Part shown: positions 2,961-45,118 of the stretch, in pieces | Position numbering within the stretch: the stretch's first letter is position 1 | How the letters are laid out: the number at the start of each line of letters is the position of its first letter | Position numbers and translations under genes: made by a program | NCBI GenBank assembly: GCA_031763025.1 | Contig: JASSKH010000007.1 | Span: 6,835,930 to 6,899,929 of the forward strand | Source: Macrocystis pyrifera | Lineage: Eukaryota > Sar > Phaeophyceae > Laminariales > Laminariaceae | DNA length: 64,000 nucleotides | Direction of reading: 5' to 3' | Notes under the pieces: model-generated | Database searches by the model: none | Told to the model about the DNA's origin: nothing | What the model saw: the letters and a program-made list of their open reading frames with translations, nothing else

Positions 2961-3072
2961 TTACGGGGGGCCATAGTAAAATAGGACCAACTATTGTTGG
3001 TAAAAATAGGGAAAAATATAGATTTTTGTGTGTACCGTACTGTAGGTCCTATTTACTATGGTCCCCCCGTGA
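2961..3072 (+). mobile_element. TA-MITE 4, with CTGTA insertion
   Basis: AGTAAAATAGG left and CTATTTACTATGGTCC right ends, flanked by TA. ACCGTACTGTAGGTCC at 3034 carries five bases more than ACCGTAGGTCC in other copies. Confidence 0.9.
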
Positions 3073-3157
3073 TAGCTGTGTGGTGCGCTGGTTGAAGACT
3101 TGTATAAATACCTCGTATATACACTTTGTACGCCTCTCTGTACCAAAACGTAAGAAT

Positions 3158-3535
3158 GTTGAGTGTGGTGAGGCAGTATGGACCTAGGGACCGACTACTG
3201 CTGGAAGGGTGGTGCCTTTTGGCTCTGCTCTGGTCACTCACACGAGGTGCTTGACGATGTTGTTACGGGGGACCATAGTTAATAAGACCAAATATTGTTA
3301 GTAAAAATATGTAAATATATGGGTGTTTGTGTGCACCGTAGGTCCTGTTAACTACCCCGCAATAGGAGCTAGAAGCCCTCACAATAGTTGCTGTTTGCCT
3401 CGCCAGATGTCTTCTGGACGAAGGGGCGAGGAGCTCATCAGAAAGGCAGGCTAAGGCCTGCCAGGTATGAAGGGACGATTGCTACAAAACATAATGCCGC
3501 AATAGGGGAGAGGGGATGCCATAACGAGAACCCAT
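3158..3535 (+). repeat. repeat F copy 1, with TA-MITE 5 inside
   Basis: GAGTGTGGTGAGGCAGTATG, ACCGACTACTGCTGG, GTCACTCACACGAGGTGCTT, CCTCGCCAGATGTCTTCTGG and GGGGAGAGGGGATGCCATAA match 18472-18755. Confidence 0.85.
3263..3361 (+). mobile_element. TA-MITE 5, inside repeat F1
   Basis: Inserted in the first repeat F copy; the second copy (18572-18580, GACGATGTTAGAAG) shows the unoccupied site. The right end has a short deletion. Confidence 0.9.
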
Positions 3536-3827
3536 GGTACATTAACATTTCATGTAAACACCGCTTCTATTTCGGTCCAAAAGTTCCTTCTGTTTTTTTC
3601 ACATGATTACTTCGGAAGATTTTCGATCGGATTTCGTACAGGCGCGCGGACCTCCGTTCTTTGGACTTTCTTCTAAAGGGTCTCCAACGGCGTCATTCAC
3701 CCGGCTCGAAAGTAAGGCATATGCTCTATACTTTTATAGGCTGCTGTGGAAATAGTAATATTGAATACAATTGTCTGCCGACACAGTGACTCGAGCCTGC
3801 CCGTCGTGAAATAAAACGAGTCATTTG

Positions 3828-3940
3828 GAGCCATTTGGAGCCATTTTGAGCCATTTGGAGCCATTTTGAGCCATTCTGAGCCATTTTGAGCCATTTGGAG
3901 CCATTTGGAGCCATTTGGAGCCATTTGAAGCCATTTGGGG
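3828..3940. repeat. 10-bp GAGCCATTTG tandem repeat
   Basis: About eleven units of GAGCCATTTG / GAGCCATTTT. Confidence 0.9.
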
Positions 3941-4048
3941 CTATCTCGAGTCACATAGACCGTTCGAGCCGTGTAGACCATATCCGAAGTGCTTAAAGTA
4001 GATATCATACCTGATAGTATCCGGCGTTTCTTTTTCATGTTTGTCGAG

Positions 4049-4083
<35 letters not shown>

Positions 4084-4099
4084 CTCCCCGATTGATTGA

Positions 4100-4360
4100 A
4101 GGTGTCATTCATATGCAAGTCCGCCCAACAAGCGGTTCTTAGCAGGATGCAGCTCACCCTTCACGCGACTCGCCCAACGCCTCACGTTTCGCTTCGCGCT
4201 TGGTGCAAGCAAGCAATACCTGCCTGGTCGGTAAAAAAAACTCGACGTGCTCCTCCGTCCCGGCATTGTAAGGATGCGAAGGTCTATGGTCATACGACTA
4301 CGGCCATGCGTGGCATGAGTACCCCCCCCCCCCCCCCCCCGCCCCGCCCCCCCCCCCCGA
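4100..4360 (+). mobile_element. SINE-C copy C3 with long C tail
   Basis: Near full-length copy alignable to C1 from GTCATTCATATGCAAG onward. The tail from 4321 is almost pure C for about 37 bases, and a second C tract (4052-4082) lies just upstream. Confidence 0.8.
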
Positions 4361-4687
4361 GTTACTGCCGAGTTTGTTGCGGTTTACTCGAAAATTTTCG
4401 AGGGGTAACGACGGAACTCCATCGTCAGCCGCCAAAAAGTCAAAATGATAAAAGAGCGGCGGCGCATGAGATGATACACATTATAGGGAGACAGCTGGGG
4501 AGAAATAAGCTTGTTTTCTTTTCCTGTGATATTCGGCACCCCGTTCTTGGCTGCCTTCGTTTAGCACCGCGGTTCCAGATAGCATCGCAATCGCACGCGT
4601 AAGTTTGCGGCCTTGTCGAGGACATCGATCTCTCTACCCTACTGCAGTTTTTTTGTTGTTGTCTTCGGCGGTGCTTCGAAGATTTTT

Positions 4688-4752
4688 TCTCTCTCTCTTT
4701 CTCTTTCTCTTTCTCTTTCTCTTTCTCTTTCTCTCTCTCTCCCTCTCCCTCT
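4688..4752. repeat. CTCTTT microsatellite
   Basis: Pyrimidine tract TCTCTTTCTCTTTCTC. Confidence 0.9.
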
Positions 4753-4909
4753 GCGCTTTGTTAAAATACCGGAGGGGAGAGCCCTGAAGCAATAATAAGC
4801 AGAATAGGAGGGGGAGGAGGAGGTCAGCAACACATTCCGCATCATGCTGGACAGGGTAATCTATTCCCAGTTCGAGACCTACGTTTTTTAAGGAATATAT
4901 AGCCTGTCT

Positions 4910-5345
4910 GATCTGTATGATTTGTATGATCTAGCTCACGCTGCAGGGTGGGAGCCGTGAAATCTGCTCATGATCTACTGCTGTAGCGCACACCATGTGT
5001 GTACTGGGTTGGATCTGTACTGTACAGATCCTGTATAACATATATCTCATGACCGCAGGTTAGGGTTTAGATGACCTAGATGATCTATCCGTAGATTATA
5101 TATATATTATCTACATGATCTATCTGTAGATGATCTAGATGATGTATATGATCTATCTGTAGATGATCTAGATGATGTAGATGATCCATCTGTAGATGAT
5201 CTAGATGATCTAGATGATATATCTGTAGATGATCTGTATGATCTAGATGGTCTATCTGTAGATGATATGAATGATCTATCTGTAGATGATCTATCTCAAG
5301 ATGATCTAGCTGATCTATCTGTATATGATCCAGATTATCCAGCTG
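4910..5345. repeat. GATC-rich TAGATGATCTATCTG minisatellite
   Basis: Degenerate units of TAGATGATCTATCTG over 430 bases; each contains one or more GATC. Confidence 0.85.
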
Positions 5346-5435
5346 TCCGACGTGTGAAACATTTCCAGCGGAAGATCAAGCTCACAGTTGTTAGATTGCA
5401 GCAGTATCACCGGGGAAATCATAAATAAGGGTGTG

Positions 5436-5640
5436 GGTGGATGGGTGGGTGGGTGGGTGGGTGGGGGGAGGTGCACTCGATATCATGCATGGCCGCAGTC
5501 GTCTGACCATAGACCCTCGCATCCCTACAATGCCGGGACGGAGCACGTCGGCTTTTCACAGACCAGGCAGATATTGCTTGCACCAAGCGTGATGTGCCGT
5601 GAGGTGTTGGGCGAGTCGCATGAAGGGCGGGGTAAAACGA
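5436..5640 (-). mobile_element. SINE-C copy C4
   Basis: Reverse-strand copy: a GGGT/GGTG repeat at the tail end, then the complement of the TCCCGGCATTGTAGG block and of GCTTGGTGCAAGC, ending near the complement of the GCGACTCGCCCAAC block. Confidence 0.8.
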
Positions 5641-6104
5641 TAGTGCAATGTGCTCGGTGGCACATAGTATCACTTCTGAGCCGTTTTTGCGGCAGCTCCA
5701 TGACGTGTAGAGCCGCTCTTGTGACAACTCTTCGATAACATCGTCGAAACGAACCTGCCTAGTTGGCTCGATTCAAGCACAGCATCATTTTTAGTGAGAG
5801 GACGAAAAGGCTGTCATTGCTCTTTCGCGTGTTTTTTCTACGTACTTACCGTATTCTCCAACATAATATAGTGCCCAGGTTTTTTTATGCACCACGAAGC
5901 ACGGGCCTCCGCAGGGACTCGGCTTGAGACCTATTAATGCACCAAAAAAACGTACCAGGTACTGTAAATATCTGGTGCATCGGAAGCAGGCACAGCGGGG
6001 GGTTAGACTTTTATGCGTAGGGTTCTTCGTTTTTTTTTTCGTGGTTTTCTTCTTTCGGAGTGATCGTGAGTGATCCATATTTTTCGGATGGCAAGAATAA
6101 GGTT

Positions 6105-6780
6105 AAGGTCTAAGTCCGTTGGGCTACTGTGGTAAAAAGGTGAACCGATCGCCGACCCACAACCTAAGCTTTGCAACACCCTCTCCCCCCCTTCGGGACA
6201 GCGGGGTCCTTGGGCTTCGTGTGGGGCCGCGTACGTGCGCAGTCCGCAGTTCTTCACAACCTCTGAGGAGCCACAGGAAGAGTTTTTAATCAACATTCTT
6301 GACGTGAGCAAATTTGCTTTTTTCTTGAAAAGCGTTTTCATGGTGGACGTGAGATACGAAGTCACGACCAAACGACCCCATGTCCGTCCCCGGTGGCTTG
6401 GTAGGTGGTCCGCGAGCCTATCGAGATCAATTTCGTGAGTTCGAGTCTCACCGAGTGCATGCTCATCATAGGGACTTTTTCTTGCATAAAATTGATTAGC
6501 GGAAAGCGCGAGAGCGTGAGTTAGCTGTACATTGGATGAAAATCGACGAGCAGTGGGAATGCTGAACCCTATGCGCGATAAAAAATAAAGGCAAGTACCG
6601 GGGGGGAGAAGGGACGACACCTGTGACCACGGCTTGTCCAGAAGATCGTCGAGGGTAAAACCTCCTACGAGTGGGCTGGAAAGTAAAAGTGATGATTAAA
6701 AAAAAAAAAAAAAAAAAAAAAAAATGTCCTGCCGATAGACGCCGCATGTTGAGGTCTAAGGCCGTCGGGCTACTGTACTG
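6105..6780 (-). mobile_element. SINE-B copy B1, split by SINE-A
   Basis: tRNA-like family; in the sense direction the head is TAGCCCAACGGAC...GAGTTCGAATCTCACG and ends TCCACCATGAAAACGC. Copy occupies 6105-6385 and 6724-6780 around A1. TACTGTACTGG at 6771 carries an extra CTGTA relative to the copy at 7408. Confidence 0.85.
6386..6723 (+). mobile_element. SINE-A copy A1 (tRNA-headed, poly-A), inside SINE-B
   Basis: Head has pol III boxes: TGGCTTGGTAGGTGG (A-box-like) and GAGTTCGAGTCTCAC (B-box-like). The body runs through GATTAGCGGAAAGCGCGAG and CAGTGGGAATGCTGAACCCT to AAAGTGATGATT, then a poly-A of about 27. ATGTCC flanks both ends (6380-6385 and 6724-6729), a target-site duplication inside a SINE-B copy. 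Confidence 0.92.
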
Positions 6781-6821
6781 GTAATTTTTTTCATCACGGT
6801 AGCCGGACGGACCAAGTTTTT

Positions 6822-7105
6822 ACCGGTAGGTAGCCCAACGGATGAAGACCTGTCAACAAATGGCGTCCATCGGCGAGACATGGTTCGTTGGTCGGTCGTG
6901 ACTTCGAATCTCACGTCCACCATGAAAACGCTTTTGAGAGAAACAAGGCGACTTTTCTCTCACGGTTAAGAATCTTGATGAAACACTCTTCCTGGTTCCC
7001 CAGAGACTTGTTAAGAACTGCGGACTAGGCGCACACTGCCCCACACGAAGACCAAGCACCCCGCTGTTTCGGACGGGGGGGGGGGGAGAGTGCTGCAAGG
7101 GTAGG
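6822..7105 (+). mobile_element. SINE-B copy B2
   Basis: Head GGTAGCCCAACGGATGAAG at 6830, CACGTCCACCATGAAAACGC at 6910, tail with GGACTAGGCGCACACTGCCC and a G-rich end (7075-7090). Confidence 0.85.
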
Positions 7106-7124
7106 TACGGCCAGGTACGGCCCC

Positions 7125-7422
7125 ATGCGAAGACAACACCCTTCCCCTCTTCAGAACAGCGGGGTCCTTGGTCTTCGTGCGGGGCAGTGTGCGCCTACCG
7201 TACGTGCCTATCCGCAGGGGTGTTCACAATTGTCTGAGGGCCCACAGGAAGAGTGTTTTTTTGTATCAGATTCTTGACATCATGATGAAATTAGCTTTTC
7301 TCTAAAAAAGCGTTTTCATGGTGGACGTGAGATTCGAACTCACGACCAACCAACGGAACAATGTCCCGCCGATGGACGCCATTTGTTGAGGCCTTTATCC
7401 GTTGGGCTACTGGTAAAACGTT
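7125..7422 (-). mobile_element. SINE-B copy B3
   Basis: Reverse copy, tail-to-tail with B2 and head-to-head with B4. The head reads GGTGGACGTGAGATTCGAAC on the plus strand at 7320. Confidence 0.85.
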
Positions 7423-7423
7423 T

Positions 7424-7770
7424 ACCAGTAGCCGGACGGACTAGGCTTTTTACCGGTAGGTAGCCCAACGGATAAAGGCGTTAAAAACGGCGTCCATCGG
7501 CAGGAAATGGGTCGTTGGTGGTGAGTTCGAACCTCACGTCCACCATGAAAACCCTTTTTAGAGAAAGGCGAAATTTCCTCATGATGTCAAGAATCTGATG
7601 AAGCACTCTTTCTGATTCCCCAGAGATTGTTAAGAACTGCGGACTAGGCACGTAGGGCTCCATGCGAAGACCAAGGACTGAAGGGAGGGGGGGAGGGTGT
7701 TGTAAGCCTTAAGCTGTGGGTAGGCGATCGGTTAACCTTTTTACCAGTAGCCCGACGGACTGAGACCTTG
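7424..7770 (+). mobile_element. SINE-B copy B4
   Basis: Head at 7460, TGAGTTCGAACCTCACGTCC at 7520, tail to TAGCCCGACGGACTGAG at 7755, so a second head-like segment ends the unit. Confidence 0.85.
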
Positions 7771-7798
7771 ATAATAACAACAAGAGAATATGCTGCTA

Positions 7799-7904
7799 TT
7801 ACGGGGGTCCGTAGTTAACAGGACCTATGGCGTACATAAAAACCTATATATTTGCCTATTTTTACCAACAAAATTTGGTCTCGTTAACTATGGACCCCCG
7901 AAAT
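7799..7904 (-). mobile_element. TA-MITE 6
   Basis: GTAGTTAACAGGACC / CGTTAACTATGGACCC ends, reverse body, TA on the left flank. Confidence 0.88.
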
Positions 7905-7962
7905 AATGTTAGCAGACAGACGTAACACCGTAACCAGTGCGCTTTTGTTAGATGCACAATGG

Positions 7963-8282
7963 CCGGCGTCCCCGGTGGATTTGGTAGGTGGTCCGCGTGC
8001 CTATCAAGATCAATTTCGTGGGTTCAAGTCTCACCGAGTGCGTGCTCGTAGGGATTTTTTTTCGCATAAAAAAATTGATTAGCGGAAAGCGCGAGAGCGT
8101 GAGTTAGCTACATTCGATGAAAATCGACGAGCAGTGGGAATGCTGAACCCTACGGTATGCACGATTAAAACGAAAGGCCCGTACCGGGGGGGAGAAGGGA
8201 CGAACCTGTGACCACGGAATGTCCAGAAGATAGCTGAGGGTAAAAAAGTTAGGCTGGAAAGTAAAAGTGATGATTAAAAGAA
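7963..8282 (+). mobile_element. SINE-A copy A2
   Basis: CCGGCGTCCCCGGTGG head, B-box variant GGGTTCAAGTC and the same body as A1. At 8151 it has CCTACGGTATGC where A1 has CCTATGC (TA-CGG-TA insertion). The tail grades into a TAA microsatellite. Confidence 0.9.
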
Positions 8283-9016: not shown

Positions 9017-9120
9017 TTACGGGGGACCATAGTAAATAGGACCAAATATTGTTAGCAAAATAGGAAAGTATATAGGTTTTTGTGTGTACCGTAGGTCCTA
9101 TTTACTATGGTCCCCCGCAA
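9017..9120 (+). mobile_element. TA-MITE 7
   Basis: AGTAAATAGG-type ends, complete; its 3' part and downstream flank are tandemly duplicated (see 9026-9460). Confidence 0.9.
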
Positions 9121-9460
9121 TAGCTAGCGTATGGAAGAGACGGAAAAAGGAGGGCAAAAATAATAAAACGGGATGGAGAGAAGTAATACAGAGGAAGAAC
9201 GAGGGGGTGGCACGCTACGTTTCGGGACCAAACGTTGCTGACCATAGTAAATAGGACCAAATATTGTTAGCAAAATAGGAAAGTACATAGGTTTTTGTGT
9301 GTACCGTAGGTCCTATTTACTATGGTCCCCCGCAATAGCTAGCGTATGGAAGAGACGGAAAAAGGAGGGCAAAAATAATAAAACGGGATGGAGAGAAGAA
9401 ATACAGAGGAAGAACGAGGGGGTGGCACGCTATCATACGTTTCGGGACCAAACGTTGCTG
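9026..9460. repeat. 215-bp tandem duplication including most of a MITE
   Basis: Units 9026-9240 and 9241-9460 are nearly identical. Differences seen are two substitutions and CGCTACG versus CGCTATCATACG (TCATA insertion at about 9432). The boundary has AC microhomology. Confidence 0.93.
9241..9335 (+). mobile_element. TA-MITE 8, truncated duplicate of 7
   Basis: Lacks the first nine bases of the left end because it arose by local duplication, not by insertion. Confidence 0.9.
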
Positions 9461-9814
9461 ACTGATCGATGGAACTAAATACGGTAGACGAGAGAGGGGA
9501 TAAGGGATTCGTCGACGTCGATCGGACAACTCGGACACAAAGAACAAGTTTGATGTCATCGTTTTAGTGTCAGATCGCTATTATTTGCTTGAGGTTGAAG
9601 CTTCAATTTCTTTTCTTTTCTCACCACTGACTGTCCTGCTTTCCACCCGTGAATTGCACCGTCTTGCGTTGTCGCGTCAGAGGTTTTGGAGGTTTCTCTC
9701 TTTCTCTCTCCGCCGGTATTCTCGCCCCACCCGTGGGCCCCGTACGCACTGAATCGTGCGCACATTCGCGATACTTTTTGGTCTCGAAGCTTCGTGCCTG
9801 ACTGGGGCGGGGAC

Positions 9815-19656: not shown

Positions 19657-20384
19657 GAGTCTAAATTGTTTATCGTCAAATTTCCCGTCCAAGAGGATGT
19701 GGAGCCAGAAGCAAGCAGTCTCACGTAAATCGAACGGGGTTATTGTTAGTTAATACTTGTCGTTGTGTGAACAGATTTCCCCGCGGAATTTCGCTGATGA
19801 TTTTTCTTCTCCGTTCCTCTGATTTTTTTCTGGTGAGAATGCGACATCGAAGCTTACCACGCTAACGATGACCCACTGATTGATTGTCGGGCGACTGGCG
19901 CACAGGCATCACGTATGTATATTACCTGGTGCAACGTACCAGGTACCGGGGATACATTCATCTCATACTTGGTGCATGCAAAAATAAAGAACAAGCACAC
20001 AAACAAGCGAACAACCAGGCCTCCCGTAGGCCGGTGTGTACTAAAATCAACTGACCTAGCTATCCGTATATGCAGAGGACCTGTCCCTCTCTCTCTGTCG
20101 TCGCTCGACCCCAGCAGAAAAAGGGCCTAAAGTAAAAAAAAAAAATACCACAATGCACGTATAAATACAGCCCAAGACGCCTAAAAACGAAGCGAATAAC
20201 TGTTAACAGAAAGGCAGGCTGAGAGGTCTACAGGAAAATAAGAAAAAGCGGCAGTCACTATTATACTGAAGTTAGCGGAGAACGCCTTCGTTCTTGAATA
20301 AGAAATCCAGCCTGGATACTGTACACATGGGCGCTCACACTGTGTGTGTTCATGAACAGCTTGGAAATATTCGTCCGAAATGGG
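19657..20384. other. no gene recognised
   Basis: Two close TACCTGGTGCA / TACTTGGTGCA motifs flank a TACCAGGTA at 19920-19980; otherwise featureless. Confidence 0.5.
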
Positions 20385-20603
20385 TGTGTTATCTTCTCAC
20401 CCTAGTGTGATATATACGGGTGTGTGTTATGTTATCACACGTGTGATAAGGGTGTGCCATGATATCACCCTGGTGTGATACGGGTGTGTTATCTTATCAC
20501 CCTAGTGTGATATATACGGGTGTGTTATGTTATCACACGTGTGATAAGGGTGTGTTATGTTATCACCCTAGTGTGATACGGGTGTGTTATCTCAACCCTT
20601 CTA

Positions 20604-20716
20604 TTACGGGAGACCATAGTTAATAGGACCTACCAGGTATGATATACGTAAAAAAACTATATATTTACCTATTGTTACAAACAATATCTGGTCCTACTTA
20701 CTGTGGTCCCCCGCAA
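20604..20716 (-). mobile_element. TA-MITE 13, with CCAGGTA insertion
   Basis: GGACCTACCAGGTATG at 20627 replaces GGACCTATGG: a TA-CCAGG-TA insertion. The element interrupts the palindromic satellite. Confidence 0.88.
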
Positions 20717-20719
20717 CAG

Positions 20720-20802: not shown

Positions 20803-21631
20803 GTTAAACACGTGCACGTGCGATAGGGAAGGATTGTTTTCTTCTTATCACACGTGTGATACGGGTGTGTTTTCTTTTCTTTTTATCACACGTGTGATAT
20901 ATCCGGGTGTGTTGTCTCATCACACGTGTGATAAGGGTGTGTTATTTTTATCACCCTAGTGAGATAAATGTGTGTTCTATTATCACCCTGGTGTGATAAG
21001 GGTGTGGTCTATTATCACCCTAGGGTGATACGGCGGTATACAGCGATGTATCACCAGATAGTACTTTTGCAAGGAGGGGATGCTCGCGCCAACAGAGGAA
21101 CCAAAACGCCTGTTGCAGGAAACACCGCCACGACATCATCACCTGTAACAACAACTGCGGTCGGCGTGTGCACGCGTGTGCCATATTGTACTTGACGGGA
21201 CACCGTAACACCCATCGGGCTAATTAATCTCTGCTACAACTACTCTACACACAAGAGTCGGCGGGCTGAGACCGATCGAATATATAGTGCGTAGGTAGAC
21301 GGACGGGGGCGGGGCCATCCTTTTGTGGATGCCAGGCGGCCAGATTAGCCCGCCTTAGATGGTTATCTTATCCCCTCTTAGCTTACAAGGGACTGGGACG
21401 GCCCAGGCTCTCTGCTGCCACACACTTGATGTATCTTACGTGCATGTGTGTGTGCATAGCAAGGTATCTATACGAAGCGGTTAATATATGCCTTTCACCT
21501 GGACGGACACCGAGTGTGCTCTCGGGTGTGCTGGTGTAGTTGGGGGTGGAAAGAAAATAACTCTTTCCTAGTCTCCACGTGAAGACAAGACACACGCACG
21601 AACCTCGTCGGAGGGCGAAAATGTTTTACTA

Positions 21632-21743
21632 CTACGGAGGACCATATAGTAAATAGGACCTGCGGTACATACAAAAACCTATATATTTACCTATTTTTAA
21701 CCACAAATATTTGGTCCTATTTACCATGTATGGTCCCCCGTAA
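21632..21743 (-). mobile_element. TA-MITE 14, several TA insertions
   Basis: CCATATAGTAAATAGG on the left and ACCATGTATGGTCC on the right each carry extra TA or TGTA bases relative to the consensus. Confidence 0.88.
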
Positions 21744-22552
21744 AAATAATAGCTTGCGGTGGCTTCACTGTTCTCCTTTCAGGCTACTTATACTGCAACT
21801 ACGTCGAATTACACCCGCGCCCCCACCCCCCCCCCCCCCCCCCCCCCGCCACCCGGCTGCCCGGAGAGCTGTCGGGACGATGTGGTCGATGGCTGGCCGG
21901 TTTGTGCGTTTTCTCCCCTTCGTGAGACTTCCTTACCATTAACACCGCCCATCGTGAGACTGAAGATTCCTTGCACCATTGATGCCGCTGAAGGTATGCA
22001 TTTACCACCCATACTTCGTACCTGCCAGGGTATAACAGTGTGTACGTACATACATATTATACATGTATGTGTGTATCTAAATATATTATATATGTACCTG
22101 GTATGTAGGTACCATACGGTATGATCCTTCTTTTTGACGGGTGCTTTCGCTGCGGGGGAAACGGGCGAAAGGCTAAATATCGTATCGTATCATATCATAT
22201 CATATCATATCATATTATTATTATATATTTCCAGTCATATTATTCGTCGGTATATACCCTCCTATAGTATATAGTATGCACGTACGCGACCAGTCGACAA
22301 AAAAAACGGTCCATAAAAATTCAGCCCCAAACGGTTCATCGTAAGTATCTCGTGAAACCACTCGGTCCTCGGTCCCTTTCGTACCTCGATACTGAACCAG
22401 GAACGCAAGGAAGGCGGGTCGTCTGTACGTCAACTGTTCAGTCCAAACGGATCCTCTTGCATTCAGTCCTTAAATTCTTAATGGTGGTGTCCTATTTGCA
22501 TCGGGGGATTAGAGTGGGCATTAAATCATATTAATATTATTAAATAATAGTA

Positions 22553-22664
22553 TTACGGGGGACCATAGTAAATAGGACCAAGTTTTGTTGGTAAAAATAT
22601 GGAAATATATAGTTTTTTCGTGTGTATATTAGGTCCTATTTACTATGTACGCCCCCCCCCGTAC
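22553..22664 (+). mobile_element. TA-MITE 15
   Basis: AGTAAATAGG-type; right end TTACTATGTACGCCCC is altered. Shares the TA at 22665 with the next copy. Confidence 0.88.
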
Positions 22665-22666
22665 TA

Positions 22667-22794
22667 TTACGGGGGGCCATACGTAGTAAGTAGAACCTAC
22701 TGCTGTACAAACAAAAACCTATACCAGGTATATATATATTCATCTATTTCTATTCACAATATTTGGTCCCTATTTACTATATGGTCCACCGCAG
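22667..22794 (-). mobile_element. TA-MITE 16, expanded by insertions
   Basis: About 20 bases longer than consensus: CCATACGTAGTAAG (TA-CG-TA), CCTACTGCTGTAC, and CCTATACCAGGTATAT (TA-CCAGG-TA). Confidence 0.85.
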
Positions 22795-23064: not shown

Positions 23065-23177
23065 TTAACGGGGGGCTGTACGAGTACATAAATAGGACCA
23101 AATACTGTCGGTAAAAATAGCGAAATATCTTGTTTTTCGTGTGTACCGCAGGTCCTATTTACTATGGTCCCCCGTAA
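23065..23177 (+). mobile_element. TA-MITE 17
   Basis: Left end reads GGGGGGCTGTACGAGTACAT before AAATAGGACC, i.e. a TACGAGTA insertion; the right end is intact. Confidence 0.85.
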
Positions 23178-23976
23178 TACCAGGCACCAACCTGTCCCAA
23201 AATCTAATGAACGTTTGCATTGAATATTAATATACAGACAGTTCCTTGTATTCACGGTCATGCTGCACTATTATACTACCAATCCAATCGCAAGGTATAC
23301 CTGGCAATAAGCATGTAAGGGCTCGTACGGATTGGAGCTTTTTTGCGGCATATCCAAAAGATCCCTACGTTCCCGGCCGATGCATGGCATGTATCTACAG
23401 CCGTATACCGGTTCATATTTACTATACGATATCACACTCGCACGTACAGCGCAGTGGGGGGACGTCAACAAATACCTGGAGGTCAATACGATATATATAG
23501 CAAGCACGTAGTGCCACTGCTCTCTATTGTGCCGGCGAAACTCCCTTGTTAGGCACGACTGGAACCCGTTGTACTGCTGGCGCTATTCTTGCCACCCCCC
23601 CCCCCCCCCCCCCCCCCCCCCGCTCTGCCGCAACTGCTGCTGTATATCTGCCGCGATTGCCGCATAATCCATGTTCACACATGTTCGTACGAGTAAATAC
23701 TTCGTACAAGGCTAACTAACGCAAGCGCGGGAAATGTGTAGGCGTAATTCTGTTTTCCTTTTGCCCGCCTCCGGGGTATATAGATATATATATAATATAT
23801 ATATAATATATATATACGAATAAGAATGAAAGGCATCACGCCGTACTAAAACCAACTGTTTTTTTTTGTTTTTTTTGTTTTTTTTAGAACCGATCCGACC
23901 CGCTGGACTGATTTATTGGTGGTGTTGACGCCTTGAAAACGTTTTTCGTCGACTTACTGCTGTAGTACAACTAAAA

Positions 23977-24101
23977 CCCTTTTTAGGACCGCATGTCCAC
24001 GTTTCTGGGGAAGACTTACTGACATACCTGGTACAGGGTATACCTGGTATAGAATTTGACTGGTTTTCCGCCAACACGGGACTGCTGTGGTCCTGAAAGG
24101 G
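23977..24101. mobile_element. piggyBac-like MITE P5, expanded centre
   Basis: CCCTTTTTAGGACCGCATG and GGTCCTGAAAGGG ends. The centre is ~35 bases longer than P2 and holds two TACCTGGTA motifs. Confidence 0.78.
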
Positions 24102-24349: not shown

Positions 24350-24795
24350 TAGGTTTTACCAGTAGCCCAACGGACTAAGTCCTCAACAAATGCCCCTCTC
24401 CCCCCCCGTGGGCACAGCGGGGTCCTTGGTCTTCGTACGGAGCCGTACGTGCCTGTTAATAGTCCGCAGTTCTTATGACCATGTCTGGGGAGGAACCAGG
24501 AAAGTGTGTTTTACCAATATTCTTGACACGCATGTGAAATTTCACCTTTCGGAACCGACTGCAGTCCAGTCACGTTTTCGGGACAAACCCAGTCTAGATC
24601 CAAGTAGTTTGCCTCCACAACGGGACCGCAGATAGTTCTATACTAATAAAAGGGTTAAAAAAGCCGTTTTCATGGACGGGAGATTCGACCTCGCGACCAA
24701 CGACCCATGTCCCGCCGACAGACGCCATATTAGTCCGTTGGGCTACTGGTAAAAGGTCAACCTATTAACCTATATCCGATCTAAGCCTTACGAGG
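24350..24795 (-). mobile_element. SINE-B copy B5, with piggyBac-like MITE inside
   Basis: Reverse copy from CCAGTAGCCCAACGGAC through the tail to the tRNA-like end at 24665-24760. It is interrupted at about 24551-24655 by a piggyBac-like MITE. GCCTGTTAATAGTCCGC at 24448 has six bases more than the consensus GCCTAGTCCGC. Confidence 0.8.
24551..24655. mobile_element. piggyBac-like MITE P6, inside SINE-B
   Basis: GACTGCAGTCC through AACGGGACCGCAG to AAAAGGGTTAA, interrupting SINE-B copy B5. Confidence 0.75.
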
Positions 24796-31110: not shown

Positions 31111-32730
31111 TCTCCCCCGCCCTCCCCTCAGGAAAGATGTGGAGGATGATGAAAAAGAAGACGGGATGTGCGAGAAGTGCTGCGATGCTGGACGGGGAAA
31201 TATCGAAGTATGTTGACATTTTACAAGGAGTTGCACAGGGATGTACGTTGTCACCTAACCTATTCAAGATATGCATATATATACATACATATTAACGACC
31301 TGATACATAGTAGCGGTCCAGGCAGCAAGGCAGGGAGTCACGGCAGGTGAAGATACGGTGTCGGGATTGATGTTTGTGCGGATGACTTCGTGGGGAGATC
31401 AGAAACGCCCGAAGGATTGCAGAAACAAATAGAGAAAGCGCTAGAATACACTAGGAAATGGAGGGTGACGGCGAACGCCAAGAAATGCGCAGTAGTTGTT
31501 TGTAACGAAGATAAGGTAAACCCGGTAGGTTGCAGTTCGAAGTGGGGAGAAGATGAATTGCCGATCGTAGACCAGTATACATACCTTGGTGTAGAGATAT
31601 CAAAGTCCTGCTCTTGGGATACACAAAAGAAAAAATAATAGGAAAGCGTAAAGCACACGTCGGCAAGATGGATGCGATCCTAACAGACTCGCACTTTGAC
31701 ACTAGGATTAAGAGATGTATCCTGATGAATGTGATAGTACCAAAGCTAGAATATGCAGGACAAGCATGGGAAGGGAACGCGAAACTCATAAAACAGTTGG
31801 AAGCAGTACAAATGACAGCAGCTAAAAAAATCCTAAGATGCTCAAGTACGACTATTAACAGTAATACAGTATCAAGAGCAGAACTGGGAATGCACCCACT
31901 CAAGACAAATAGAGACATGAGAAAGTTGAAATGACAACATAAAGTAAGGAACAGGCCAAAAAAGAGGTTGCCAGCCATAGTTGATAGAGCTGCATGTGAG
32001 AAAGTAACAAAAGGGCGAGCTGGAATAAGGTGGGATGGCGTAGTTGAGAAAGTACGGAAGGATATAGGGGGAAACCAAGAAGAGATGATGTCCGCCGGGA
32101 AGTTTGGGAGGTACAAGACAGAAGTAGAAGGATAGAGAGAAGGGAAAGGCTAGCGTTAATAAACAAGGTGGAATCGGAAAAAACACTTAAACATGTACGG
32201 GGATTGAGAGAAAGAATATGAATGAAAACGTATTTGCATGCCCAATGGACTTCGCGAAAAAGTCGAAACAGTGATTTCGTGTAGGTGACCTGGACCTGCC
32301 AGAAAGAAGAAAGAGGTATATCAGTAGCCGGGAGGAGCAGGAAGTAGTCGCACAGATGTGCCCGTGTGGCAAATAAATAGAGAGTAGAACTCACATAGTA
32401 GGAGAATGTGAAATATACAAGGAGGAACGGGAAGTGCTAGAAGAGATGAGGGAAATAGACGAATGTGACATGGAGGAGTTTGATACACTACATAGCAACG
32501 AGAAAACGATCGCTATCATAGGAGATAGATGGTGGCCACAGGCGGCCAAACAGGAAGGGGATAAGATTAACAAAAAGTTTCTGTGTAATATATGGAAACA
32601 ACGTAATGAGCGCCCAATTGTTGGAGGTGTCTCTATCAGGAGTAGGAACCGTGCTCCGTCTCGAAAGGGATGCGTGGTCAATGGTCGAATGACTAAGGCA
32701 AGCAACAAATGAGTATACCCAAGCAATGTC
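31110..32730 (+). mobile_element. 5'-truncated LINE (reverse transcriptase and CCHC tail)
   Basis: Non-LTR retrotransposon remnant. RT motifs in order: QGVAQGCTLSPNLFK (31231-31275), INDLI, CADDFVG (about 31370), YTYLGVEISKSCSWD (31580), then the thumb/C-terminal part with HVGKMDAIL, RAELGMHPLKTNRDMRKLK (31880) and KKRLPAIVDRA. The C-terminus has CPCG...HIVGEC (32358-32410), the CCHC knuckle usual after LINE RTs, GDRWWPQAAKQEGDK, and ends CVVNGRMTKASNK at a TGA (32710). Several frame changes and at least two in-frame stops make it inactive. The 5' end with the endonuclease and start of RT is missing; it abuts a SINE-C copy, and another SINE-C copy follows its 3' end. The last ~70 bases resemble the 3' end of SINE-C. 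Clade not assigned. Confidence 0.9.
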
Positions 32731-35047: not shown

Positions 35048-35379
35048 TTAACATTTTCATAAGTCTCGGGTTATACATAAATACATAAATACCAACCAGG
35101 CACCAACTGCCCAACGTGATGCTATGAATAGTTTGTAGATAAAGTTGCCGTGCGTCCTAAGGATTGACGCGCGCGCGCTGGCAGAGCAGGCGCGCTGATA
35201 CCAGGAAACCATGGTATGTACCAGGTAGCAGCTGACACATGTTAATATCAATGGTAATGGATTCATCATTACGTGGTTATTTGTTCGTGGCTATCCGTGC
35301 CACCAGGGTTTAAGCCCATCTATATAGTTGTTTGTTTGTGGTATTCGCAAATCAGGAGGGAGGATTAATCGCGCGCGCG

Positions 35380-37552: not shown

Positions 37553-38255
37553 GTGAGGCGTCGAAGCCTCACTACGGTGTGGGGTAGATCTATTACCTTA
37601 TTTCCGTGTTAAATAGCCGCATCTTCGATCTCTCTTCCCGATTTTGGGATGAGATGGTCATCATCCTTTTATCTCCGTGACATCTGCATCTACGACTATT
37701 CAGGGTGGGCTAACGTGATGGAGTAGCACATCCATTGTATAGGAACGCATATGCCCGTGAGCGGATCCTTGCATGGTTGCACATAGCTCTTTGCAGATAC
37801 CAGACAAAACTGTAGACGAGTATTATATGGTTATGTGTAGACTCGCAGGAATATATCTGCAGGCGAATAATATATGGATATACATAGCTCTTCGGGAATA
37901 TTCAGTGGAGCACTTCAGACATCCCCTTTACCCGCGGAACATTATGTTAGAAGTCTGGGAACCTTCTGTATGACAACGTCCCGGCAGAGAACATTATGTT
38001 ATAGTTGGGAATATTCTGTATGACAACGTCCCGATAGACTTTATCTGCATGTACAGGTTGGTTCTGGTCGACGTCTGGGCTGAGTTGTGTTCCTGACGAA
38101 GCCCACTATCGCTCACTCGAGTTCTCTCTCTTTCTCTCAATTCACTTGAGGAGCATAAATAAGAAGTTCGTGAACAACAAGCAAGCGTACTCTACCCAGC
38201 ACCGACATCCCTGTGCCCCTTACCGGCTTATATCTCTGGACCCCACTTCACATCC
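37553..38255 (+). repeat. repeat E copy 2, uninterrupted
   Basis: Includes an upstream ~165 base block (GAAGCCTCACTACGGTGTGG, CTTCCCGATTTTGGGATGAG) also present before copy 3, then the body as in copy 1. Confidence 0.75.
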
Positions 38256-38304: not shown

Positions 38305-38660
38305 GTTAAGGTCTTAGTCCGTTGGGCTAAAGGTAAAAGGTTGACCAATCGCCTACCCAATCTAAGCCTCATAACACTCTCCCCCCCTGGAACGGACCGG
38401 ATATACGGGTCGACGCGTGACACCACACGCGGTTCCAATTTCTGGGGATCCAGAAGTATTTTTTTCAGATTCTTGACATGAGGAAATTCACTTTTCTTGA
38501 AAAAGCGATTTCATGGTGGACGTGGGATTCGAACTCACGACCAACGACCCATGTCCTGCCGACGACGCCATTTGTTAAGGTCTTAGTCCGTTGGGCTAAA
38601 GGTAAAAGGTTAACCAATCGCCTACCCAATCTAAGCCTCATAACACCCAGGCCTCTTCCT
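38305..38660 (-). mobile_element. SINE-B copy B8, tandem one-and-a-half unit
   Basis: One full reverse unit (tRNA-like end at 38515-38560) with the 80-base block TTAAGGTCTTAGTCCGTTGG...CCTCATAACAC present at both 38306 and 38573. This shows the unit can lie in tandem. Confidence 0.8.
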
Positions 38661-39356: not shown

Positions 39357-39412
39357 AATACGGGGGACCATAGTAAATAGGACCTGCGGTACACACCAAA
39401 ACCTACCTGGTA
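39357..39412 (-). mobile_element. TA-MITE 27, left half only
   Basis: AGTAAATAGGACC end kept; ACCTACCTGGTATAC at 39401 is a TA-CCTGG-TA insertion; the right half is missing. Confidence 0.8.
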
Positions 39413-39654
39413 TACAAGTATAAATACAACTATAATTACGATTTTTGGGGTCGTTGTCACTTGCTAGCTCTTGGCAGACAGACCGACTGATAGACAGCTC
39501 TTCGCAAGCAGCCCTTCTTCTTTGAAACAGCCGAACAGCCAAACAGCCAAACAACCTTTCTTCTTTCTTCTTCCGCAAACTGCCAACCAATAGACAGCTC
39601 TTCGCACGGCGCCTAAAAGAGGCGTCTCGCCTTCGACGAACGGCATAGATAGGT

Positions 39655-42408
39655 GCAGCTGTCGGCGGCCAAGCTGCTGCTGTCGGTGGCGAACCTGCTG
39701 GTGCTGCAACCCCCGCCTCTCCCTTCTCCACGCCCCCTAAGCTCACCTCCCCCTCGTCGAGAGGCGCGTGGTCCTCGCCCTCTGGCAAGAGAGCGGCAAC
39801 GACAAAGACCGACCTGGTGCCGGCTGTTGTTTGCGACCAGTGCACGGACCAGCACTTGGTCAAGAACTCCGCGCCTGGTGGCACAAACGTGGCCTTCGCC
39901 ACCTGCAAGGATCTCACGTGCGCTGGTGGCGGGATCATCCTGACAGGGCAACCGACTGCGAGTTCTGTGCTCGCCCGATCAAGGAAGGGACTGTCTCGTA
40001 CTCCCTCGAGACTGCTGACGGTGGTGAGTGTCTTACGTCTATTGTGCTACCGTATGTTGCCAGTACGTTTTTTGGGGGTTTTCAATTGCCTTTTTGCATA
40101 CAAATCTACGTCAAAGCGTTTTTTTTTTTTTTTTTACTCATCCATGCTCGTTCTTTCCCCTTCGTGCGTTGCGTCGGCTCCTCTTACACATAGTGCACGC
40201 GAACGCGCACATGCACAACTGTTTGCGGGACGTGAACGAAGGAACGGAGGATTCAGCTGTCGCCGTCACCGCTGCACCGAACGACGTAAGTGCTGCTGCT
40301 ACTGTGGTGCTTTTTCGGTGCATGCACACGATTTCTGTGTGTACATGTTTTGGTGACCCTACGTACTCTTTTTGCTCGTGTTCGGCTGCCGCTGCCGCTG
40401 CCGCTGCTGCTGCTGCTGACGTCAGCGCCACGCCATGAGTGCTGCTGCTGCTGTGCACCTGCTTCTCCTGTGCACTCGCTGCTGCTGTAGTGCTGCTGCG
40501 TTGTTGCCGTGCTGTGCACCTGCTGCTCCTGTGCACTTGCTGCTGTTGTATGTAGTGCTGCTGCGTTGTTGCCGTGCATCATGCTGGAAGCGTACGACAT
40601 ATTTTCGGATCGTCAATTCCGTAGGTTTTGCGATGGCGGCATACCAGGGTACATGCTTTTTTTCTTCCTTATTTTCATATCGTTGCTATGCTGCTGCTGC
40701 TGCTGCCAACGCTGCGGCGATTCGTTGCAGCTTCTGCTGCTGCTAATGCTGTACCTGCTTGTGCTGCTGCTGCTGCTTATGCTGCCGCAATATCCACTGA
40801 ATGTTCGTATGTACTCGGATTACTGTTTTTCTAGGTCGTTTTTGTACCCAAATGGTTCTTTTGATGCGTAAAAAAAATATTTTTGTCGTTTTGCTCCTGC
40901 ATTTTGCGTACGTACTGCTTTTTTCTCGTTTTTGGCTTGGTTATTTTCATATCGTTGCTATGCTGCTGCTGTGGTGCTGCTGCGTTGTTGCCGTACATCA
41001 TGCTGCACTTGTGTGTGTACATATTTCGGTATCGTCAATGAAATTCCGTAGGTTTTGCGATGGCGGCATACCAGGGTACATACTTTTTTTCTCCCTTATT
41101 TTCATATCGTTGCTATGCTGCTGCTGCCAACGCGGATTATTGTTTTTATTGGCCATTTTTGTACCCAAATGGTTTTTGTGATGCGTAAAAAAAATATTTT
41201 GGGTGTTTTGCTCCTGCATTTTGCGTACGTACTACTTTGTCTCGTATTTCGTATTGTTGCTATGCTGCTGCTGCGTTGTTGCCGTACAGCATGCGGAGGT
41301 GGATCTATAGTGAGGTACCAAAAATACTTTTCGGACGGCCTCGGGGTACATACTTTTTTTCTCCCTTCTTTTCATATCGTTGCTATGCTGCTGCTGCCAA
41401 TGCTGTGGCGATCCGTTGCTGCTGCTTCTGCTGCTGCTGCTGCTGCTGCTCTGCTTTTAGTGCTGCCACAATATTCACTGAATGGTTGTATGTATTCGGA
41501 TAATTGTGTTTCCTGGTCGTTTTGTGGCGCTGCTGCGTTGTTGCCGTACATCATGCTGGACATGATTTGTGTGTCTATTACACTTACCTTGTGCGTGCCT
41601 ACATATTTCTGTATCGTCAACGATTTTTTTTTTGTGGTGCTGCTGCGTTGTTGCCTACATTATGCTGGACGTGATTTGTGTGTGTACTGTACTACACTTG
41701 TGTGTGTACATATTTCTGTATCGTCAATGAAATTGCGTACTTGCTGCTTCTGCTGCTGCTGCTGCCGTCGTATAGCAAGCGATTACGTACTGTTGTTGTG
41801 CCGCTGTAGAGCAATACAAATAATGAACTCTGCCCCCCCCCCCCCTTCCCCCTCCCCCGCCATTCCCTGCACGCCACTCCCGCCCCGCGCACCCTATGTT
41901 TACTTCGACCAGGTCCGTGGCAAGTGCTACAACTGCCGCCTGACGGACTCCACCATCAAAGACGGAGACATCATCATCAAGCGCAAAAAGACTCCCTTCC
42001 ATTTCGCCTGCTCCAGGGCTTCGCGGAATTCCGAAGCAGTACGCCAAGCAGATTGTCGCCATCCAGGACGAACGAAAGGAAACAAATTGTTTCCCACATT
42101 TCCCACAATCACGATTCTTTCTTCCTACACATATCCAACGGGTTCAACAGCGAACAGATCCACATTCTGGGCCTCACGCTTCGTTACTACAGCAGCCTGG
42201 AAGACTATTTACATATCATGTCTCATCCAAACTCCTATGCTGGCTACATCGAAATCGCGGCCGCCCAGCAACTATACAACATTTCCATAACCGTTGTCGT
42301 TGCCGGCACTGCTGCTTTCTCTCCTGTCCCAAACCTTCCTTTAAACAACAGCCTGTATGTTGTATATCATCCACATGCCAAGCACTACTCCACTCTCTCC
42401 CCACACTG
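39655..42408 (+). CDS. Cys-pair zinc-binding-like protein with OTU-protease-like C-terminus, split or decayed
   Basis: Probably a deubiquitinase-like host gene. The first coding block (39655-40023) follows a likely acceptor at about 39650 and carries CDQC, then CKDLTC, then CEFCARPIKEG; it ends at a GTGAGT donor at 40024. The last block opens near 41913 after a CAG acceptor with KCYNC, DGDIII and FHFAC, a CxxC...HxxC pattern like treble-clef or PARP-type fingers. It continues to ISHNHDSFFLHISN, YLHIMSHPNSYAGYIEIAA, LYNISITVV and NNSLYVVYHPHAKHYSTL before a stop at 42408. The YxxxMS...GxIE...YNxxI...HYS order is that of the C-terminal half of OTU cysteine proteases; HY would hold the catalytic His. 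The DGNCLF Cys motif is not visible. Frames change at short runs near 39930, 42015 and 42075. It could be a pseudogene, or the OTU block could be a separate gene. Confidence 0.5.
40400..41780 (+). repeat. CTG-rich degenerate tandem repeat within an intron
   Basis: Three to four units of 250-430 bases sharing GTGCTGCTGCGTTGTTGCCG, CATCATGCTGGA, GGTTTTGCGATGGCGGCATA, CATATCGTTGCTATGCTGCT, GTACCCAAATGG and GCTCCTGCATTTTGCGTACG. Lies between the coding blocks of the OTU-like gene. Confidence 0.85.
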
Positions 42409-42627
42409 ATGAAATATGTTTATTCTTATTATTAGACGAATGTCATTCTTGCTCTTGCGTCACCCGATCTTACGTTTCACATTACATTCATAAATAAAGG
42501 CGATTATTACATCCTTCACCGTTTCTCACACAAATACATTTAGTTTGGTTGGCTTTGGGCTATTGCCCCAATTAATTGCAGATATATGTACAAGAAACGA
42601 CGGAATACCCACTCCGAAGGAAAGCCT

Positions 42628-42684
42628 TGTATTTATCTATTTTTACAAATAATATTTGGTCCTATTTACTATGGTCCCTCGTAG
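42628..42684 (-). mobile_element. TA-MITE 28, right half only
   Basis: TATTTGGTCCTATTTACTAT with TGGTCCCTCGTAG end; the left half is missing. Confidence 0.8.
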
Positions 42685-42764
42685 TAGTAGGTCCACGACT
42701 CTAACCGATAGTACACGGCTGCTGCTGCTGTCGTCGACGCCGTTTATTAATAGTAAGGTGTTAT

Positions 42765-43110: not shown

Positions 43111-43569
43111 ATACCGGAAAAGCGTTCGCACAGGGAGGGGAGTGGCGCGATCGTTTGTTCAGCGCTCGCTTTTTCCATTAGGGGAAGAGGTTAAGGCTGC
43201 TACTCGCCAATAATAATATACCTGGTACCTGGTACTCGGACCAAGCCAACAAAGCTACACCGTAGTCAGCGTGTTTTCGGAAATAATCCGTCTGGTCGAG
43301 AGCCTTCCACAAAAATCTACCACTCTGTCTCTAAATATTTTACCCGTTTACATTGAATATTAATGGATAAACGGACCGTATATTTCTTGATAGAGTGGTA
43401 GCAGTTACTAATGGTAATGTTCGATTTTATTTAGAGAACCCTTCCTTATACCGTTCGTTGTCGAGAACGAAGGGCGCCGAAAAAACGATCCCCACTCCTT
43501 TCTCCTGTGCGAACTCGACGCTCTTCACTCTTTACGATGTATATGTAAACGCTGAAAAAGGTATTTATT

Positions 43570-43660
43570 GTTAATAGTCTGTTGGGAAAAAAGGTTATCC
43601 CGATTTCCTCACTACCCAAACCAAGCCTGATAAAACTCTCCCTCTCTAACTGGCGAAAAT
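43570..43660 (-). mobile_element. SINE-B fragment B10
   Basis: TAGTCTGTTGGG, AAAAGGTTATCCCGATTTCC, ACCCAAACCAAGCCTGATAA: tail junction segment only, preceded by TTGTTAATAG as in B5. Confidence 0.55.
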
Positions 43661-43693
43661 AAAGGGTAACCGATTATACAGCTGCCTTGAAAC

Positions 43694-43725
<32 letters not shown>

Positions 43726-43910
43726 TTCTGTTTTTTTTTCTGTTTTTTTAAAAAAAACAACACTACTACCTGCTACTTCGCACCCACACTATTATTAATA
43801 GTCCGCCGTACGATGCTCACTCATCCACAGACCCTGATTTTTCGGAGATTCGAACCCTCCACCCCATCCCCATAAGCATTCATTTATTGTTGATTCTTGG
43901 GTTGCCTTGA

Positions 43911-43993
43911 CTCTTTAAGGGCAAACTGCAGTCCCACTTTGGGGACACATCATTCTGACTACAAGGGGTTTGTTCCCATAACGGGACTGAGGA
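43911..43993. mobile_element. piggyBac-like MITE P10
   Basis: CTCTTTAAGGGCAAACTGCA left and ATAACGGGACTGAGG right arms. Confidence 0.75.
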
Positions 43994-43997
43994 ACTA

Positions 43998-44101
43998 TTA
44001 CGGGGGACCATAGTAAATAGGACCTATGGTACAACAAAAACCTATATATTTACCATTTTTTACTACCAATATTGGGTCCTATTAACTATGCCCCCCCGCA
44101 A
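43998..44101 (-). mobile_element. TA-MITE 29 (hybrid ends)
   Basis: Left AGTAAATAGGACC, right CCTATTAACTATGCCCC. It adjoins a piggyBac-like MITE at 43911-43993. Confidence 0.88.
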
Positions 44102-44182
44102 TATTAGTAATATTGTTATTAGTAGTGTACTGCTAATACTACGTACTACTAACTATATTGTTGTTTGTGTTCTTCATATCAA

Positions 44183-44290
44183 ACCGTTCTTTCCACCCGT
44201 CGACATCCACCACAACCAGAGTCCGGTGCCGATTCTTCGATCCTAGAGAGATACAAGCTCGGTTTGTGTGATGACAAAAACTACGACACA
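44183..44290 (+). repeat. repeat G copy 1
   Basis: AACCGTTCTTTCCACCCGTC, GTGCCGATTCTTCGATCC and TAGAGAGATACAAG; five copies in the window. Confidence 0.7.
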
Positions 44291-44308
44291 GATATGCTAC
44301 TATTACTA

Positions 44309-44414
44309 CTACGGGGGGTACATAGTTAACAGGACCTATGGTGTACATAAAAACCTATATATTTGCCTATTTTTACTAACAAAATTTGGTCCCGTTAACT
44401 ATGGACCCCTGTAA
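44309..44414 (-). mobile_element. TA-MITE 30
   Basis: GTTAACAGGACC / CGTTAACTATGGACCC, complete. Confidence 0.9.
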
Positions 44415-44589
44415 TATTAATATTATAGGGGTCTGTACGTTTTTGTGAAGGTGTGAAGCGGAGACATATTACCTACTGAGCTATATAGGGGTAATAAAGA
44501 TCGATCGTCTTCAGCCTTTCCTTTGCGCCGCATTCGGAATATGACGTCGTTTGTCAATGGTGCGGGCGCTGCGGTGGTCACCTTCTGTT

Positions 44590-44900
44590 GATACCAGGAC
44601 AATTACCTAGCCCAGGGCAATCCTCTGAACGGCGGGTTCTTTGGGGCGCCGGCCCCGTAAACGGCCGTACGCTGACTGACCTACATACCCGCTTCGCTCC
44701 AATACCTGGGGAACCAGGTACACACGTTTCTCAGGGACGCACGCGCAAGCGTGTCTACAAAAGAAACGTTCGAAGCGAGATTCGAACCTGTGTCCTCGGC
44801 GACGTCGAAATGCGAAGGTGTTGTTTGCTGAGCATATATATGTGGGTAAAAGACCTATCGATCAGCCAGCCCAGGGTAATCCTTGTGTTATCTGGTTGCA
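44590..44900 (-). mobile_element. tRNA-like SINE, distant SINE-B relative
   Basis: GCGAGATTCGAACCTGTGTC (44777) looks like a reversed T arm and ends a unit with a similar head/tail layout. Sequence outside the boxes differs, so this may be another family. Confidence 0.4.
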
Positions 44901-45006
44901 AGTGTGATACGGGATGATATACCACAGCTCGTTAGGACCGTTTCCCTTACGAACTGGTGTGATACTACTGCCGTGCGCACGATATTTCGTACTTGTTTGT
45001 TAACTA

Positions 45007-45118
45007 TGACGGGGAAACATAGTAAATAGGACTTACGGTACACACAAACACCTACGTACGATATATTTTCCTATTTTTACTAGCGACATTTGGTCCTATT
45101 TACTATGGTCCCCCGTAA
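45007..45118 (-). mobile_element. TA-MITE 31
   Basis: AGTAAATAGG-type; CCTACGTACGATATATT at 45051 is longer than CCTATATATT in other copies. Confidence 0.88.

Follow-up and report, generated by a model that had tools for sequence, protein, structure and literature searches.

TACCWGGTA words dispersed through the giant kelp genome, best read as footprints of departed TA-targeting transposons

What leaves short insertions that start at an existing TA and end in a new one inside copies of dispersed repeats? The question is raised by a 64,000-nucleotide stretch of the giant kelp, Macrocystis pyrifera (G000:C221:6835930-6899929 in our numbering; hereafter the window), in which an earlier reading of the letters (the sequence-only reading) had picked out 11 such TA-X-TA sites and taken them for likely scars of transposon departure. 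We conclude that these micro-insertions are probably the excision footprints of cut-and-paste, TA-duplicating transposons of Tc1/mariner-like type. The scars occur genome-wide, and their commonest form, TACCWGGTA (W is A or T), is best read as the footprint of an element with an unusual 5-nt tail; the donor step, that is, the presence and departure of an element at the scar sites, we infer.

The genome searched holds 537,376,219 bases in 223 contigs; in the excerpt of its report used here, the assembly is described as that of a haploid female gametophyte, of 537 Mb in 223 contigs, the largest of 26 Mb, with an N50 of 13,669,674 (PMC10498591). Most analyses used a working sample of 357,411 bases in 51 records: the window, 20 arbitrary 10-kb stretches, and 30 loci of about 3.1 kb each that were chosen for holding a miniature inverted-repeat transposable element (MITE), for which the sample is therefore enriched. 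An additional 4.2-kb stretch (L051) was read separately for one DDE_1 copy. Labels such as L001, L007 and L042 denote sampled stretches, with coordinates internal to each; L001 lies inside the window and is counted twice in some sample counts (96 TACCWGGTA with it, 95 without). Repeats were masked only against other sampled sequence, and the z values of words refer to the 271,006 masked bases.

TACCWGGTA is present 121,279 times in the whole genome, one per about 4.4 kb, compared with 2,421 times for the reversed word. The 20 arbitrary stretches hold 62, a density that predicts 166,587 genome-wide, above the number actually counted. The window contains 16, against a mean of 0.55 and a maximum of 2 in 100 shuffles. 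In the masked sequence TACCAGGTA was found 84 times against 1.9 expected from a first-order Markov model (z 59.5), which makes it the commonest 9-mer after a simple-repeat filter and the word with the top z in lists of the four best words per frame. In frames other than TA, z reaches at most 30.1 for X of 5 and 22.1 for X of 6, both values coming from the AC frame and from the same words shifted by one base. Equal counts of CCAGG and CCTGG are not evidence, because they are one word read on two strands. Doubles TACCWGGTACCWGGTA sharing a TA number five in 354 kb, three of them in opposite orientation, which tandem duplication would not make. Occurrences in the window located by word search include the following.

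161..169, no strand assigned: TACCAGGTA scar word, no known paralogue
5953..5961, no strand assigned: TACCAGGTA scar word
19937..19945, no strand assigned: TACCAGGTA scar word
22095..22103, no strand assigned: TACCTGGTA scar word
24025..24049, no strand assigned: two TACCTGGTA, starts 16 bp apart
35219..35227, no strand assigned: TACCAGGTA scar word
43219..43234, no strand assigned: double scar TACCTGGTACCTGGTA
52776..52784, no strand assigned: TACCTGGTA scar word
59697..59705, no strand assigned: TACCTGGTA scar word
61956..61964, no strand assigned: TACCAGGTA scar word
63974..63982, no strand assigned: TACCTGGTA scar word

A word this frequent might be internal to one or more high-copy repeats that escaped masking against the sampled sequence, and some small-contig places do recur at similar spacing, while two L048 sites have similar flanks. 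Nearly all of the 96 contexts look different, however, and all 187 of the 187 flanking sides tested diverge within 14 bases, so that we regard a missed repeat as extremely unlikely.

That the word arrived by insertion is visible where a comparison can be made. A paralogue spanning the junction without the insertion was recovered at 7 of 92 TACCWGGTA sites, five of them good (window 20631 and 22722, L042:2287, L046:2288 and L048:9265) and two weak (E 0.20); control words gave 1/21 and 2/63, one of those two being the same place in MITE 13, and a third control had no sites. At L048:9265, a CCTGG outside the window, the paralogue lacking the insertion is 96-97% identical. The word is seen as 7 added base pairs, with TA duplicated, in copies of two distinct repeats: the MITE, and one shared by L048 and L022.

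Once in place, the word appears to decay. Of 154 occurrences of TACCAGG, 96 continue with TA, and the next most frequent continuations are its two transitions, CA (11) and TG (7); among the one-step neighbours of the 9-mer transitions average 8.9 and transversions 4.8, with 2.7 expected by chance. The summed excess of this halo, about 90 against 95 intact words, would correspond to neutral decay of about 0.1 substitution per site. The flanks show a symmetric preference: A or T stands at both -7 and +7 in 61/94 scars, compared with 6,690/22,508 of all TA and 575/1,739 of TA-N5-TA, and a purine at -1 is paired with a pyrimidine at +1 in 63/94, compared with 7,938/22,508 of all TA. Against the all-TA background the chi-squared values are 34.6 at -1 (A or G), 49.3 at -6 (A), 55.5 at -7 and 18.9 at -8 (both A or T); in one random sample of 189 TA-N5-TA sides no position exceeded 16.3. 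Taken together, and as far as sequence comparison goes, the 7-bp insertions, the decay halo and the flank preference favour a history of insertion and excision at TA, and the case for excision scars rests on CCWGG.

Alternatively, selection could be maintaining or spreading the word as a host motif, namely a palindromic site of binding or processing, in the manner of bacterial uptake sequences. It is very common, dispersed and palindromic except at its centre, and the symmetric flanks could be the periphery of a recognition site longer than the word itself. Its occurrence as a TA-duplicating 7-bp insertion in two repeats and the decay around it argue the other way, and we think such a motif unlikely.

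Within the repeat copies of the window, the pattern reported by the sequence-only reading is real, and its 11 sites differ in quality. Four are clean insertions: CGG in repeat copy A2 (8151..8157, TACGGTA; seven empty matches, the best paralogue 92.7% identical), TCA in the second unit of a duplication (9431..9437, TATCATA; the adjoining 215-bp unit is 98.5% identical without it), CCAGG in MITE 13 at 20601-20717 (20631..20639, TACCAGGTA; paralogue 88% identical without it), and CGAG in copy C5 (9908..9915, TACGAGTA), which is absent from the four copies compared (32787, 53692, 444 and 5513), C5 having in addition one extra C relative to them. The duplication that carries TCA is

9025..9462, plus strand: tandem duplication, period 215 bp, 96% matches, second unit carrying the TCA scar

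Two further sites have the expected form and may be imperfect tandem copies: CTG in MITE 4 at 2958-3074 (3038..3044, TACTGTA, CTGTA beside CCGTA), with 42 empty matches, and CG in MITE 16b at 22664-22793 (22680..22685, TACGTA, CGTA beside CATA), with eight. CCAGG in MITE 16b (22722..22730, TACCAGGTA) is a good insertion with extra TA units beside it, and CCTGG in MITE 27 (39404..39412, TACCTGGTA) is seen from one flank only, because a 3.2-kb insertion interrupts the MITE beside the scar. CTG in copy B1 at 6771 is ambiguous, since a perfect tandem duplication of TACTG explains it equally well, and we dropped it; the probable CGAG in MITE 17 at 23079 is also ambiguous, that copy being too rearranged. 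At 21727 in MITE 14, what had been taken for TG is an insertion of 4 bp, CATG, flanked by TAC and TATGG; the TG has no TA immediately in front of it, and the site is not of TA-X-TA form and was likewise dropped.

We then asked of TA what any dinucleotide might show, counting D-X-D words whose paralogous junction lacks the insertion in 12 frames (AA, TT, CC and GG left out). Raw counts were inflated by CTA/GTA microsatellites, and simple sequence and near-tandem copies (unit within one base of its neighbour) were removed, for X of 2-8. TA retained 46 events, against 11 for AT, 8 for AC, 6 each for GT and AG and 0-4 for the others; several of those in other frames are TA insertions shifted by one base, and several of the 46 are still microsatellite-like. 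The TA excess expected by the sequence-only reading is thus present in this filtered count. In the MITE alone (168 copies), 22 anchored insertions of 4-11 bp include 9 that fit TA (2 flagged as tandem) and 4 that fit AT. Sites having paralogues carry TA on both sides of X and were inserted at TA.

Slippage during replication, or small templated duplication where TA is abundant, would account for the many raw TA-frame events that are CTA/GTA microsatellites, for the perfect tandem duplication at B1 and for the MITE 4 CTG and MITE 16 CG, which lie within one base of a neighbouring unit and are missing from the filtered events because the filter drops such units. It does not account for CCAGG at 20631, CGG at 8151, TCA at 9431 and TTCATG at L029:1152, which all survive the tandem filter, nor for a CCWGG that recurs 121,279 times, and we judge it distinctly unlikely as the general explanation.

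The MITE used in these comparisons is itself real, with 169 profile matches in the sample and 37 in the window (one of these is weak, and two are the parts of a single interrupted copy). The MITE is bounded by TA on either side and has ends TTACGGGGG, and one copy served as a yardstick.

46470..46578, minus strand: resident MITE, 105 bp between two TA, ends TTACGGGGG, empty site known

The empty paralogous site of this copy lies about 8.6 kb away at 37884-37886, with matching flanks of 357 and 358 bp that are 86 and 88% identical, and TA duplication on entry is therefore seen for this MITE. When resident elements nested in repeats were searched for, the best TA-flanked inverted ends, among the matches listed, were mostly those of the MITE itself. 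The 3.2-kb insertion in MITE 27 (39407-42630) has a second copy at L046:5371-8507 (92% identity), with internal repeats, a 412-codon open frame and what we read as apparent CAAG...CTTG ends between TAs. A 395-bp stretch between TAs at 24357-24751 has 20-bp inverted ends CCAGTAGCCCAACGGA, with related stretches at 6102-7768; B1, previously called a short interspersed nuclear element (SINE), SINE-B, has the same end and so may not be a SINE but a DNA element with inverted repeats. Tandem arrays at 20382-20592 and 20846-21030 (units of 32-98 bp) are made of inverted TCAC...GTGA blocks adjoining TA. Another repeat has copies at 31451-32149, at L015:1738-2355, whose match to the reverse-transcriptase profile RVT_1 is weak (4.3e-06, short of the curated cut-off), and at about 9200-9800 in L048, a copy that bears one CCTGG and one CTGG scar. 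Runs of pure G or C stand at about 2283-2340, 4050-4083, 23595-23620 and 43697-43725, one of them longer than 50 bases. Rfam and tRNA scans of the window gave no matches.

Beyond CCWGG, other candidate words are enriched between TAs. Near-palindromic X are in excess 1.36-fold at 3 nt and 2.79-fold at 5 nt, compared with 1.10-fold for other X of each length; about 82 of the excess of 98 at 5 nt is CCWGG. At 3 nt we counted CTG 51, CAG 42, TCA 33, CGG 32, CCG 30 and TGA 23 times, with 13-15 expected each, and no enrichment of GTC or GAC; part of the CTG and CAG counts may come from degenerate CTA/CTG triplet repeats. In the masked sequence, under the same model, TACAGCAGTA was found 33 times against 0.4 expected (z 48.9) and TACGAGTA 54 times against 6.2 (z 19.3). 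Counted on both strands in 357 kb, TACAGCAGTA/TACTGCTGTA (CAGCAG) occurs 42 times, 12 of them in the window, and TACGAGTA/TACTCGTA (CGAG) 61 times, 16 of them in the window, about 60 and 5.6 times uniform chance respectively. C5 at 9908 is the one clear insertion among CGAG words. Flank bias falls at -1 and -15 for CAGCAG and at -1 and -12 for CGAG, different positions as might be expected for different enzymes. Three further sites in the window belong here.

45053..45063, no strand assigned: TACGTACGATA, possible scar in scar (CG then CGA), in the MITE at 45004-45120
46376..46384, no strand assigned: TATCTGGTA (X=TCTGG) in a dispersed repeat, absent from a paralogue at 36888 (89%) and from another near 37761
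52861..52866, no strand assigned: TACGTA (X=CG), absent from a paralogue at 38625 (85%)

How a transposon might write such words can be set out in a few steps. On entry, TA would become TA-element-TA. On departure, the transposase would cut one strand a few bases inside each end, leaving the flanks with TA and a short single-stranded terminal tail. A tail close to its own reverse complement would allow the two tails to pair with one central mismatch and be joined as TA-X-TA; tails CAG, CCG and TCA would give TACWGTA, TACSGTA (S is C or G) and TATSATA, as for Sleeping Beauty, and a 5-nt tail CCAGG would give TACCWGGTA by the same pairing. Such a near-palindromic tail would explain the central A or T of the scar. 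Both the 5-nt stagger and the tail pairing at excision are parts of this proposal rather than of the counts, and CGAG and CAGCAG would need another repair route. The sequence-only reading had expected Tc1/mariner scars of TA, two or three terminal bases and TA: CWG, CSG and TSA agree with it in length and, like CCWGG, are near-palindromes with one central mismatch, while CCWGG departs from it in length and CGAG and CAGCAG in pattern.

Several results weigh against excision by such elements. A 5-nt tail exceeds the 2-3 nt of the published footprints, in the excerpts of them used here. In a first, cruder frame test of 119 non-tandem gaps of 3-12 bp from self-alignments, over all 16 dinucleotides, TA led only narrowly (TA 12, TT 10, AA 7, others 0-4). 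Near-palindromic X of 7 nt are no more enriched than others (1.19-fold and 1.17-fold), and ATA and TAG, two 3-mers outside the near-palindromic C..G and T..A types, show an enrichment similar to that of CAG and TCA. Neither CGAG nor CAGCAG is near-palindromic, and both lie off the central-mismatch repair pattern; the strict junction test found 0/60 for CGAG and 2/42, both unconvincing, for CAGCAG, and TACAGCTGTA and TACTGCAGTA, which independent repair of two mismatches would also produce, were counted 0 and 3 times, compared with 42. Donors, too, are scarce, with two CCAGG-ended inverted repeats in 357 kb against 96 scars; in 354 kb we counted 57 TACCAGG ends that lack the TA, where chance would give about 40 (our own arithmetic), and since this is near chance and includes decayed scars, intact donors look rare. 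All three candidates from a profile search of the genome for DDE_3 (PF13358) were scored and none matched, and the 4.2 kb read around one DDE_1 copy revealed no TA-flanked inverted ends.

The scarcity of donors bears out the view that most of the families have no full copy resident here: TA-flanked inverted end pairs in 357 kb number two for CCAGG, none for CAGCAG or CTGCTG, two for CGAG and one for CTCG. The search for elements whose termini equal X did return the two CCAGG-ended repeats, with no copy tied to a scar. One, at L043:2261-2732, is 472 bp long with 15 matching end bases; the other, at L007:2759-2870, is a Stowaway-like MITE with an extended end, and as a query it gave 64 genome matches from the 40 scored of 95 candidates, many to the inner part only and several reaching the extended end. 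These kelp inverted repeats we take to resemble plant Stowaway ends. A 4.4-kb CCTGG pair in L042 is made of scar words. One CGAG-ended pair, L038:4331-6610, was set aside as a donor, since we read it as two opposed copies of the A repeat; the second lies at 46944-47414 in the window, with 9/12 end bases matching.

Transposase genes of another type are present. DDE_1 (PF03184), of pogo type, has 39 matches in the genome, 14 of which cover profile positions 1-175 without stops; the copy at G000:C202:8066650-8067204 (in L051) lies in a 345-aa frame matching DDE_1 at 2e-29, and the position that we take to be the second catalytic Asp reads LLLMNGCASH. A Pfam scan of ten chosen open reading frames found no transposase, an RVT_1 match below cut-off in L015, and weak gag-like and TFIIA matches. 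Pogo-type DDE_1 genes thus exist, many with long open frames, but they are unlinked to the scars. Open DDE_1 frames, and scars that greatly outnumber visible elements, are also what one might see if the scars stemmed not from hopping but from developmentally programmed removal by a domesticated host transposase, much as TA-bounded elements are eliminated in ciliates. Nothing ties the DDE_1 genes to the scars, however, and we hold this to be very unlikely.

With departed transposons still the preferred source, a more specific proposal is that a TA-targeting transposase with an undescribed way of cutting (5-nt stagger, tail CCAGG, target approximately WWA....RTAY....TWW) left some 120,000 intact 7-bp tags while its own copies almost vanished or, in a related bold form, tagged TA in hit-and-run fashion with no resident element ever established. 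We offer this tentatively, as possible but doubtful. Were excision the source, the genome would be a fossil record of departures by elements now rarely seen, and a countable, decaying scar would tell how often, when and where transposons left, even for families of few copies. One could also read from DNA alone what length of cut a lost transposase made and which targets it preferred, and the genome would gain 7-bp frameshifts and new TA targets from one more source.

How does this compare with known systems? Bacterial DNA uptake sequences are short words repeated far above chance through a genome; the kelp word differs in being an insertion relative to paralogues where these can be compared. 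A limited literature search by title returned, among the matches listed, none on such a scar in a genome at large. For another brown alga, Ectocarpus, the excerpt used here describes 17 families of Mariner-Tc1 elements with almost 12,000 copies, most of them non-autonomous; the main text of that paper, searched for the word excision, gave no match (PMC12477816). For rice DNA transposons, the excerpted account has 8 of 94 putative excisions as perfect and the rest with deletions, filler or both (PMC4423477), unlike kelp, where one exact word dominates. Stowaway MITEs and plant mariner elements are alike in their 2-bp duplication and in the short pieces of element end left behind, as excerpted (PMC4561436). 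There is also a close likeness to Sleeping Beauty and Frog Prince. The kelp differs from them in its 5-nt main scar (CCWGG), in a donor transposase that is putative and in scars that far outnumber the elements seen. According to the parts of these reports used, Sleeping Beauty leaves 3-nt 3' overhangs whose joining gives footprints identical to the overhang (PMC7827188), the footprint of both elements is C(A/T)GTA (PMC3878927), and the kelp scars share with them the TA target, the duplicated TA and a near-palindromic tail, there C(A/T)G, between TAs (PMC3878927, PMC4378557), a logic that the kelp CTG, CGG and TCA sites fit.

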